The notes under the pieces were generated by a model that saw only the letters and a list, made by a program, of their open reading frames with translations, did no database searches and was not told where the DNA came from. The translations under genes and the position numbers were made by a program. A DNA stretch of 64,000 nucleotides. Origin: Hyperoplus lanceolatus (taxonomy: Eukaryota; Chordata; Actinopteri; Uranoscopiformes; Ammodytidae). The stretch lies in NCBI GenBank assembly GCA_026929865.2, contig CM049416.1, forward strand, positions 20,141,001-20,205,000, written 5' to 3'. How positions within the stretch are numbered: position 1 is the stretch's first letter; each line of letters starts with the position of its first letter. Below, piece after piece: positions 10,901 through 16,900 of the stretch.

Positions 10901-13900
10901 AAATGGTCTCTACCCTCCCAACCTGACCACTGATCTTTACTAATTGCGGCCACTTCTGAAGCAGGCAGAAAACGGTTTGGCCACGGTGTTAAAAACAGAT
11001 TTTATGAACCTGTTAATGGCGCTCGTCTTCTTTGGTGTCACCATGTGCTGTTTGAGAGTCTCAATGATGTATCGATAGACTAAGGGATCCTGTGACAGGA
11101 GATTCATCCTTAGCACCCCTGCACTGCCCATCTTCTTGCACAGGTCCTTGTGCACTGCCCTGATGGTCCTTTTAATATGGTGACCACTTGGCTTGACAGC
11201 AATGTCAGAACCTGCGATTTCTGCACAAAGTGTTTCTTTCAATGTTTTGATAATATATCTTGTAGTATCAGCAGATAGATTGATGGGATGATTCTTGAGG
11301 ATCTGATTGACCAGCCCAGACACCATATTTTGGCAAAACAGTCCATCCCACTTATGGATAGGTTGCACTGAGGGCTTACTTGCAGATGGGTTGGCTGCGG
11401 ACTTTGATCTAGTAAAGTCAACTGTAGCCTCAAACTGGTCTTTCTCAGCCTCACATGCAGCCTCATTATTGATAGCTGGTTTATCAATGTAGAAAGCCGG
11501 TGTCGTTGAGGTGCTGGACACAACTACGTCATATTCCTCTTCCAAGATGTTTTCATTAATATTCATGGGGCTGATATTTGTAGTTTGCTCCTCCAGGATG
11601 TTCTTCATAGCTTCTGTCGTTGTAGTAACAAAGCTTTCTTTGGAAGAAACTTGCGTTGGTTCATCCTCTTCAAAATGAGTTGCAGTGGTTTCCACAGTTG
11701 GGTCTCTTGCTGATGTCAAACTTCCCACTACTCCCTCTATCTGGCTCACAGCAACGGTCACCTCGTCCACCTTTGTCTCACACTTTTTAGCCTGAAGGGT
11801 GAGCCACAGCCACATCCTCTTCATGAATCTGTATACTTCAGTTTGGATTTTGGGGAAGATTTCGACCTTTGGTCCATTGTCCTTAGGTTTCAGGTGGTTG
11901 TGTATTACCACACTCAGCTGTTTGGCAACAGGTGTGTGCTTGCCGCTAGAAAGGTCTTTTGCCATTGTGTCGTAAAGGCAAAGTTCCTCAGTGCTGCCTG
12001 TTGTCTTGCTGGCTTTTTCTACAGGGATCATGTCCTCCACCAGGCTATCCACACTGTTAATGAAAGACTCAATTGATGACTTGTCTACATTCAGTGGGAG
12101 GCTGTCAAGGCTCTTCCTCACTTTTGCCACAGAGCTGAAGACTGACTCTTTCGCAAATTTGTGGACAAAAAGGGCTTTGATTCTACCTCCCATAGTTTTC
12201 AAGCAGGACGTTTGACAAGAGGTTTTCTCTGATAGGGACGTACTCTTGGGTGAGCCATCTGTCTCCAAATTAAGCTCCTCCAATATTACTTTGGCAATCT
12301 CAGAGGCAGCTGCCTCTGTATCCTTTGAGGTCCTGGACACAACCTGGTTATATTCCTCCTCTGAGATGTTTGCTGTAAAATGAATGAGATTGCTATATGC
12401 TGATTGTTTCTCCAGGATCTCTTTGACAGCTTCTGTAGTTGTATTTAAGAGGCTTCCCTCTGATGAAACTTTTGTTGATGTCACAGGAGTAACGGGGCAT
12501 GTCAGACTTCCCACTACTTCCTTTATCTGGCTCAGAGCCACGCTCATCTGGTCCCCCTGTCCCTCAAGCTGTTGTGACTGACAGGTGAGCCACTGACACA
12601 TCCTCCTCATGACGGAGTCCACTTCTTTCCTGATTTTGGCTAAAATGTTGACCCTTTGGCCATTGTCCTCAGGTTTGAGGTGGCTGTATATCACCTCACT
12701 AAGCCGTTTTGAAACATTGTCTTGCTGCCCACAAGAAATCCCTTTGGCAATTCTCTCATAAAGGGAGTGTTCATCTGTGCTGCCTCTTGGTGTGCTTTTG
12801 TCCTCTGGTTGGATCATTTCCTCCACAAGGAAGTCCAACCTGGTGATCAGAGACTCAACTGATGATGTGTCTACTGTTTGTGGGACGCTGTCAAGGCTGC
12901 TCCTCAGTTTTGACACAGAGCTGAAGATCGTTTCCTTTGCAAATGTGCGCAAATAAAGGGCTTGGACTTTACTTCCCACCCTTTTCCAGCAGGAAGGTTT
13001 GTAAAAGGTTTTCTCTGATAGGGAATTCCTCTTGTGTGAGCCATCTGTCTCCACATTCATTTCATCCAATACTACTTTAATAATTTCAGAGGCAGCTGCC
13101 TCTGTGTCCTTTGAGGTGCTGGACACAAGCATGTCATATTCCTCCTCTGAAATGTCTTGATTAATGCGACTGCTTTGAGACGATTGTTTCTCCAGGATAC
13201 TCCTGACAGCGTCTGTGGCTGTCATGACGAAGCTTTCCACCGAAGAAGATCTTTGTGATGCTTGCTCTTCAAAAGGAGTTACAGGAGTTTGACGTGACTC
13301 CTCAGGTGCATCCGGCTCCTCTGCTGATCCTTCCCCTGGTGTTTTAGCTCCATCAGATTCCAGCTTCGGGCTCTCTTGGCATTTATTCTTCCTTGCCTTG
13401 CATTTCATCTGTCCTGCTATTTTTTTCAGTATTTTTATGACAGGTTTTACCATTGCCTTCAGTAAGCCGGTGGAAGGCTTGGATACCAGCACGCCGCTCT
13501 CCTGGCTGCTGCCTGCGCTGCTCCCACTAAGCTTTGAGAGCTCTGAGTTAACTCTCCTCGTAACCTCTTTTACCACAAGCTTGTTAACCTCCTGTGTGCT
13601 CTGGCAATGGATGTCTTGGTCGACACCCATCACCTCCGCAAAGGTTAGTGAAATAGTGTCACCCAGACAATCAAAGACTTGGTCTTCAGAAATAACAATG
13701 CTCATGTGTGATGCCCTGGATCCACAAGAGCTGCTGAACAATTTTCTATGACCCCCCTGTGTTATGCTTTGTTTTAAAGCCTCATAAATGTATCTAGATA
13801 TAATGCGAATTATATCCACACACATGTCTGTTATGATACTCTCTGTTTTCTTGTCAACAGACCCGATGTCCAGGTTGACCCACTGTACCGTTGTCAGTTT

Positions 13901-16900
13901 GTCAAAGGACATTTTGACATGCGGGCGGAGAGTCTCTGTTGTGGCCAGCGGAAGGGCCAATTCCATATTCTCTTCTCTTGCATTATCCATTGAGATCGCT
14001 GTTTGCAGTCGCTTTGTACCTTTCCTCGTAGTAACAAAGCTTTCTTTGGAAGAAACCTGCGTTGGTTCATCCTCTTCAAAATGAGTTGCAGTGGTTTCCA
14101 CAGTTGGGTCTCTTGCTGATGTCAAACTTCCCACTACTCCCTCTATCTGGCTCACAGCAAGGGTCACCTCGTCCACCTTTTTCTCACACTTTTTAGCCTG
14201 AAGGGTGAGCCACAGCCACATCCTCTTCATGAAACTGTCTACTTCAGTTTGGATTTTGGGGAAGATTTCGACCTTTGGTCCATTGTCCTTAGGTTTCAGG
14301 TGGTTGTGTACTACCACACTCAGCTGTTTGGCAACAGGTGTGTGCTTGCCGCTAGAAAGGTCTTTTGCCATTGTGTCGTAAAGGCAAAGTTCCTCAGTGC
14401 TGCCTGTTGTCTTGCTGGCTTTTTCTACAGGGATCATGTCCTCCACCAGGCTATCCACACTGTTAATGAAAGACTCAATTGATGACTTGTCTACATTCAG
14501 TGGGAGGCTGTCAAGGCTCTTCCTCACTTTTGCCACAGAGCTGAAGACTGACTCTTTCGCAAATTTGTGGACAAAAAGGGCTTTGATTCTACCTCCCACA
14601 GTTTTCAAGCAGGACGTTTGGCAAGAGGTTTTCTCTGATAGGGACGTACTCTTGGGTGAGCCATCTGTCTCCAAATTAAGCTCCTCCAATATTACTTTGG
14701 CAATCTCAGAGGCAGCTGCCTCTGTATCCTTTGAGGTCCTGGACACAACCTGGTCATATTCCTCCTCTGAGATGTTTGCTGTAAAATGAATGAGATTGCT
14801 ATATGCTGATTGTTTCTCCAGGATCTCTTTGACAGCTTCTGTAGTTGTATTTAAGAGGCTTCCCTCTGATGAAACTTTTGTTGATGTCACAAGAGTAACG
14901 GGGCATGTCAGACTTCCCACTACTTCCTTTATCTGGCTCAGAGCCACGCTCATCTGGTCCCCCTGTCCCTCAAGCTGTTGTGACTGACAGGTGAGCCACT
15001 GACACATCCTCCTCATGACGGAGTCCACTTCTTTCCTGATTTTGGCTAAAATGTTGACCCTTTGGCCATTGTCCTCAGGTTTGAGGTGGCTGTATATCAC
15101 CTCACTAAGCCGTTTTGAAACATTGTCTTGCTGCCCACAAGAAATCCCTTTGGCAATTCTCTCATAAAGGGAGTGTTCATCTGTGCTGCCTCTTGGTGTG
15201 CTTTTGTCCTCTGGTTGGATCATTTCTTCCACAAGGAAGTCCAACCTGGTGATCAGAGACTCAACTGATGATGTGTCTACTGTTTGTGGGACGCTGTCAA
15301 GGCTGCTCCTCAGTTTTGACACAGAGCTGAAGATCGTTTCCTTTGCAAATGTGCGCAAATAAAGGGCTTGGACTTTACTTCCCACCCTTTTCCAGCAGGA
15401 AGGTTTGTAAAAGGTTTTCTCTGATAGGGAATTCCTCTTGTGTGAGCCATCTGTCTCCACATTCATTTCATCCAATACTACTTTAATAATTTCAGAGGCA
15501 GCTGCCTCTGTGTCCTTTGAGGTGCTGGACACAAGCATGTCATATTCCTTCTCTGAAATGTCTTGATTAATGCGACTGCTTTGAGACGATTGTTTCTCCA
15601 GGATACTCCTGACAGCGTCTGTGGCTGTCATAACGAAGCTTTCCACCGAAGAAGATCTTTGTGATGCTTGCTCTTCAAAAGGAGTTACAGGAGTTTGACG
15701 TGACTCCTCAGGTGCATCCGGCTCCTCTGCTGATCCTTCCCCTGGTGTTTTAGCTCCATCAGATTCCAGCTTCGGGCTCTCTTGGCATTTATTCTTCCTT
15801 GTCTTGCATTTCATCTGTCCTGCTATTTTTTTTAGTATTTTTATGACCGGTTTTACCATTGCCTTCAGTAAGCCGTTGGAAGGCTTGGATACCAGCACGC
15901 CGCTCTCCTGGCTGCTGCCTGCGCTGCTCCCACTAAGCTTTGAGAGCTCTGAGTTAACTCTCCTCGTAACCTCTTTTACCACAAGCTTGTTAACCTCCTG
16001 TGTGCTCTGGCAATGGATGTCTTGGTCGACACCCATCACCTCCGCAAAGGTTAGTGAAATAGTGTCACCCAGACACTCAAAGACTTGGTCTTCAGAAATA
16101 ACAATGCTAATGTGTGATGCCCTGGATCCAGAAGAGCTACTGGACGATTTTCTATGACCCCCCTGTGTTATGCTTTGTTTTAAAGCCTCATAAATGTATC
16201 TAGATATAATGCGAATTATATCCACACACATGTCTGTTATGATACTCTCTGTTTTCTTGTCAACAGACCCGATGTGCAGGTTGACCCACTGTACCATTGT
16301 CAGTTTGTCAAAGAACATTTTGACAAGCGGGCGGAGAGTCTCTGTTGTGGCCAGCGGAAGGGCCAATTCCATATTCTCTTCTCTTGCGTTATCCATTGAG
16401 ATCGCTGTTTGTAGTCTCTGTGTACCTTTCCTTGGAACGATGTGAATTTGCCCTGAAAAATCAAAACGGAAACCAACCTTTGGATTTGGGTCCTACTTAT
16501 AAACTTTCATATCGCGTTTTATGACATCAACCATTACATCATTGGAACCTTTAGTTGCCTTTTGATCTTTGAATGACGTCATGCCATTCCAATGACTTCA
16601 AAGGAAAAATGTCAAGAGTTTAAATATAAACATTCAACCCTAGCAACTGTAACTATGCACGTGACTTCACCTGCCTTTGATCTTTGAATGACCTCATACC
16701 ATACTGACATGCCCCGCCCCCTTTGGGGGAAAAGCACAGGGCCCCAAAAAAATAAAAATAAATCAATCCTAGGCCCATACTTGTCTTTAGACCATTTAGC
16801 CTACTAATAAAATTAAAGTTTTCTCTTTTCAAAACGCCACTTCAAGCGTATTATTCACCATTTCATTTTTGTTTTAGCCATGGAGGGGTGGGGCCTATGA

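Follow-up and report, generated by a model that had tools for sequence, protein, structure and literature searches.

Many of the lineage-specific, or orphan, genes of zebrafish arose by gene duplication, contain few exons and have no relatives elsewhere, according to the accessible part of one survey (PMC3599513), and a complete gene can also lie within the intron of a host, as LRRTM genes do inside the alpha-catenin genes in the available portion of the report on that arrangement (PMC3933685). The present analysis concerns an intronless open reading frame (ORF) of 1818 codons plus a stop, located at 10940–16396 on the minus strand of a 64,000-nucleotide stretch of the Hyperoplus lanceolatus genome (assembly GCA_026929865.2, contig CM049416.1, here C22:20141001–20205000; the whole stretch is referred to as the window). 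This ORF is likely an intact member of an intronless multigene family that is restricted to its lineage and whose genes carry their own TATA promoters. The computed parts of this reading, namely the frame, the family, the gene-tied promoter, purifying selection, spread as roughly gene-sized units and in-frame module duplication, carry high confidence. Families of this kind are known; this one is undescribed as far as the searches reach, and no published description of the repeat family was found in those parts of the literature that the search covered.

The reading frame and its host intron

The frame starts with ATG, and the reading stays open upstream to 16492; the other five frames across the same stretch carry 35 to 118 stops each. 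With codons taken as independent, an open run of 1818 codons has a probability of about 10^-46 under the composition of the ORF and 10^-53 under that of the window, figures that are overstated, as internal repeats break this independence, yet still exclude a chance ORF, in agreement with what the original prediction stated for this 5.4-kb frame.

The host gene, tbc1d30, runs on the plus strand and is identified in the window by RabGAP-TBC and DUF4682 domain matches, with exon matches at 4779–4979, 8009–8176 and from 22405 onward, plus others further right (tblastn with pieces of human TBC1D30). The ORF lies antisense inside its 14.2-kb GT...AG intron at 8166–22402, as proposed, which rules out that the frame is the shadow of a tbc1d30 exon. 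Its intronless, coding-like character is borne out as well.

A dispersed gene family

When the window's own genome (806.7 Mb) was searched with the protein, at least 56 matches were obtained, which group by position into at least 22 places on 11 contigs (C3, C6, C7, C8, C9, C11, C12, C14, C19, C20 and C22); both figures are minima, since scoring covered 26 of the 217 candidate matches. The ORF is thus not the lone hidden gene it was first taken for, and its nearest relative, at C22:19.93 Mb, lies about 215 kb away on the opposite strand and is 98.5–99.0% identical. Nineteen of the 22 places were read (the fragments at C6:6.51 Mb, C8 and C14 lie outside this sample), 15 of them carrying uninterrupted frames above a threshold of 600 codons (615 to 1818) and four carrying shorter ones. 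The genes share one plan, in which an N-terminal domain is followed by one to four modules, each of about 255 residues, and then by a C-terminal domain; 12 of the 15 long copies end in the conserved C-terminus. In a module tree built on 30 of 31 rows, the first, middle and last types cluster across loci, and the C20 and C12 copies also show duplicates that arose within the gene. No intron-containing parent occurs among the 19 places read; the ultimate ancestor could lie elsewhere or be too diverged. The C19 members L013 and L015 (and L014) open with an additional, diverged copy of the N-terminal start (MGKTREEQMDF...), a second case of 5' duplication.

The promoter

The 300 bases before the start codon align over all 15 long copies. 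On the minus strand of the window, the copy alignment and motif counts delimit a TATA element, TATAAGTAGGACCC (16488–16501; also found by genome search), a cAMP response element (CRE)-like site, TGATGTCA (16522–16529), and a CRE, TGACGTCA (16574–16581), and motif counts add AGATCAAAGG (16674–16683), which is presumably a TCF/LEF- or SOX-like site. The sequence TATAARTAGGACCC is found about 105 bases upstream of the ATG in 14 of the 15 long copies. Sites of the form TGAYRTCA number 35 against 0.6 in shuffles, with at least two per copy in 14 of 15, and AGATCAAAGG occurs 13 times against 0.01; such an excess alone proves little, because the copies are related and not independent. Across ten copies, the TATA segment has diverged by 0.067 on average; the CRE segments stand at 0.13 and 0.16, the leader at 0.17 and 0.14, and the remaining four segments at 0.26–0.34. 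The 20-base TATA element (at most one mismatch) occurs 16 times genome-wide, always just before a family gene, and the reversed control does not occur at all. By coordinates these sites are the 15 long copies and C19:5.706 Mb, so that six of the 22 family places lack the element. The gene would be transcribed from this promoter, with a start near 16470, independently of tbc1d30, and may be regulated by CREB/ATF-type together with TCF- or SOX-type factors.

Protein architecture

Offset identity and alignment served to measure the repeats; all domains below are on the minus strand. The first round comprises an N-terminal domain (residues 1–244, 15665–16396), module A (245–506, 14879–15664) and module B (507–785, 14042–14878), followed by a linker (791–802, 13991–14026) that is homologous to the untranslated leader directly before the first ATG; the overlap at the duplication breakpoint is 14020–14026. 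The second round repeats the N-terminal domain (803–1046, 13259–13990), module A (1047–1308, 12473–13258) and module B (1309–1587, 11636–12472). It is followed by the remnant of a third module (11507–11635), by eye resembling the last-type modules of other copies, and by the C-terminal domain (1631–1818, 10943–11506), on which dN/dS, the ratio of nonsynonymous to synonymous change, shows the strongest constraint in the family. Modules A and B share 54% identity, and the N-A-B unit of 802 residues (2406 bp) is present twice, the two units differing at 28 of 789 compared codons, 20 of them altering the residue (dS 0.016, dN 0.011). The two-level repeat of the original prediction, related modules within a near-exact second round, therefore stands; its unique C-terminal 230 residues in fact comprise some 49 that belong to a third module and about 188 unique ones.

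That no standard domain would be recognised also proved correct. Pfam NUP120_helical reaches 35.4 bits for the whole protein against a cut-off of 27.7, because three repeated stretches sum; single modules fall below it (A 16.2, B 17.2 bits), and NUP120 or any other Pfam assignment was rejected, as was an NCBIfam assignment, for which the top score was 20.9 bits and the cut-off 262. Protein Data Bank (PDB) sequences gave nothing convincing, either with phmmer (best E 0.12) or with family profiles of the module (0.1), the N-terminal domain (0.02) and the C-terminal domain (0.0077, mostly designed helical repeats). A viral or phage origin was discarded, since phage records and viral contigs hold no relatives of the protein and PHROGs gave weak partial matches only (best E 0.00054), and neither of two pattern matches in prokaryote genomes is a relative. 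The domain libraries searched fail to recognise the protein family. The repeated amphipathic helices and serine-rich linkers tentatively suggest long helical, perhaps scaffold-like proteins, although this is doubtful.

Selection on the frame

Values of dN/dS were calculated by the Nei-Gojobori method, and pairs with dS of 0.1–1.2 were kept. Stop-bearing C-termini (C9:3.78, C19:5.72), a fragment from C11 that contains two stops, the second-unit modules of the window, one C6 first module and overlapping duplicates were left out before alignment. The median dN/dS is 0.33 for the C-terminal domain (70 of 78 pairs; Fisher p < 0.01 in 59), 0.56 for the modules (443 of 465 pairs; 301) and 0.61 for the N-terminal domain (91 of 105 pairs; 42), and no pair in this set reaches 1. 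Modules A and B differ by 206 substitutions and hold no stop, while random substitution produces 6.0 stops on average and none in two of 2000 runs. Purifying selection has held the frame open as protein, moderately on the modules and N-terminus and more strongly on the C-terminus. The original prediction had named relaxed dN/dS between modules as a sign against a gene, and the values come only slightly near to such a state (0.71 between A and B; family medians 0.33–0.61).

It should be noted that several observations weigh against the family reading. The N-terminal domain and the modules are only modestly constrained; dN/dS between the window's two units is 0.70, on few changes, with 0.99 in B and 0.78 in the N-terminal stretch; and the C-terminal pair of window and C12 copies reaches 1.05 at dS 0.09, one of 59 pairs with dS limits of 0.05–1. 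Decay is common, because three of the 15 long copies have lost the C-terminus and at least four of the 19 places read are fragmentary or broken. The base at position -3 of the start codon is T. Lastly, an AlphaFold2 model of module A, made with four window copies, is all helix but unreliable (predicted local distance difference test, pLDDT, 42; predicted template modelling score, pTM, 0.25) and was not used for a fold search, so that the helical scaffold rests on the sequence pattern.

Some of these points suit a rival reading, in which the family is functional but the window copy is a young duplicate, possibly of no use, that is heading for decay. The frame of the C22:19.93 sister is already broken, the two units show the dN/dS of 0.70 just given, the last module is mostly gone and the 3' flank lacks about 480 bases that the sisters have. 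Against it, the 1818-codon frame, promoter elements and C-terminal domain of the window copy are all intact, and this fate is a serious possibility that is nevertheless judged somewhat improbable.

Spread of the family

The members have spread over 11 contigs as roughly gene-sized pieces of DNA, probably copied as whole gene units. Retrocopying fails for the long copies: the promoter is preserved in every one of the 15, and the loss of the parental promoter that marks a retrogene is not seen. Recent pairs share little beyond the gene, which large segmental duplication does not predict.

A selfish mobile element, in which the ORF is cargo or the sole gene and is moved by an enzyme supplied elsewhere, would account for the dispersal over 11 contigs and for a copied unit near gene size in recent pairs, whose ends lie at -336 and +419 (window and C22:19.93), at about -362 to -400 and +1091 to +1295 (C6 pairs) and at -953 and +850 (C9 pair). 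Against this, domain searches revealed no transposase, integrase, reverse transcriptase or other mobility domain, only weak sub-threshold matches, and a match to a transposon-encoded protein, the other outcome that the original prediction had named as fatal to it, was not found in Pfam, NCBIfam, PHROGs or the PDB. No long inverted or terminal repeats surround the window copy, and the unit ends vary by tens to hundreds of bases among pairs. Neither constant ends bearing terminal repeats nor a convincing target-site duplication was seen, the duplications having been checked in the flanks of five copies; words of 7–8 bases are common to both flanks in three of the five, which is about chance (an estimate) and not at both breakpoints. 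The roughly 16 promoters genome-wide also make for a low copy number. A classical transposon is disfavoured, because no mobility domain or terminal repeats were found and the ends vary from pair to pair, and a selfish element of the broader sort is unlikely.

Transposable elements do occur nearby. A hAT-type element of 983 bp lies upstream of the promoter at 17196–18178 (17188–18186 with its 8-bp duplications, AACTCTGC) and has the ends CAGTGTTG; it lies outside the ORF, which excludes the ORF as a part of it. Adjoining the promoter at 16762–17088 is a dispersed repeat, likewise not containing the ORF, that resembles a miniature inverted-repeat transposable element (MITE), with at least 40 matches (all of the 40 scored among 1267 candidates); the C22:19.93 and C3:17.49 sisters have a homologous repeat at the equivalent place in the opposite orientation, as if flipped. 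The 3' flank of the C12 copy (L025) contains a TTAA-flanked AGAGGACCTATTATG... insertion, which is taken to be a piggyBac-like MITE.

Construction of the window copy

The C22:19.93 sister has a single N-A-B unit, its frame being broken before the C-terminus; each half of the window gene can be aligned to this single unit, with a 7-base overlap at 14020–14026. A tandem duplication in the window copy is the simplest reading, the alternative being that a unit was lost in the sister. Such a recent duplication of N-A-B would have put the leader of the second unit in frame after module B, creating the 12-codon linker. That the second round is an assembly artefact would fit a sister with one unit only, but the units differ at 28 codons and within-gene module duplicates are seen in the C20 and C12 copies too, making an artefact quite improbable.

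On the 3' side of the window copy, the absent stretch of about 480 bases is followed by sequence matching C22:4.345 Mb. About 540 bp there (9936–10475) match C22:4345271–4345792, beside a truncated family relic; this is the sole match of the stretch among the 40 scored of 4917 candidates. Between this segment and the gene, at 10642–10877, a short repeat, GCGTGGGTTTTCTCCGAG..., occurs twice, with A-rich tails and AATAAA in each.

Possible function of the modules

The number of modules may vary while the C-terminal domain performs a conserved job. As for the modules, the RII-binding helix of A-kinase anchoring proteins (AKAPs) is typified by Ht31 and the consensus LxxxAxxIVxxAIxxA in the accessible parts of two accounts (PMC4526808, PMC3682517), and the family proteins could conceivably be scaffolds that anchor protein kinase A (PKA), with a helix present in most modules acting in the same manner. 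The AKAP motif is found in that helix in 24 of 31 modules, 14 of 15 proteins have their best Ht31 match at this position (reaching 41–43 in two C19 copies), and the CRE sites of the promoter would suit cAMP regulation. Shuffled controls speak against it: the Ht31 match of the window protein is equalled 86 times in 1000 with shuffled proteins and 54 times in 1000 with shuffled peptides, shuffles do as well for AKAP-is (992 of 1000), RIAD (713 of 1000) and AKB-RII (180 of 1000), and the motif total of the window protein is 3 against a shuffled mean of 3.05. A fixed-column motif count finds none in 31 modules, probably a column-offset effect, and a helix search of the PDB gave no AKAP match. PKA anchoring is improbable; the apparent resemblance to an RII-binding helix, with its position conserved and the window protein not above shuffles, is a lead only.

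Other features of the window

Two overlapping frames at 31491–32365 on the plus strand, without a Pfam match at E 0.1, are presumably like ORF1 of a long interspersed nuclear element (LINE). On the minus strand, a frame at 51228–51677 contains a protein kinase C C2 domain (PF21494, E 8e-30).

Implications

The family offers a clean case of a large intronless family spread as complete transcription units, with the protein altered by whole-module duplication and the core promoter elements held more strictly than the surrounding sequence. If expressed, it is a fast-evolving protein family, and antisense copies in the introns of other genes, as in tbc1d30, could affect host-gene expression. A more radical view, that of a 'travelling gene' in which gene and promoter form an autonomous unit that copies itself as DNA to new chromosomal sites, including introns, with no recognisable transposon machinery, is highly improbable; if true, the protein would meanwhile grow by in-frame module duplication, and the whole would behave as might be expected of a selfish or drive-like germline gene.

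Comparison with known systems

AKAP and fibrous-sheath scaffold proteins such as AKAP4 and FSIP2, as described in the available part of their account (PMC11276731), are also long, probably helical and scaffold-like, and one module helix here resembles an RII-binding helix; yet no sequence homology to them was detected in the Pfam and PDB searches, and the helix resemblance is not significant for the window protein. The LRRTM genes (PMC3933685) share with this locus the placement of a complete gene within a host intron; the difference is that the present nested gene is a member of a dispersed and recently duplicating family. Many teleost orphan genes resemble this family in their origin by duplication, few exons and lack of relatives; to the extent that the survey (PMC3599513) is accessible, they are shorter, whereas the proteins of this family are 700–1818 residues long and modular, and their genes share a conserved promoter.

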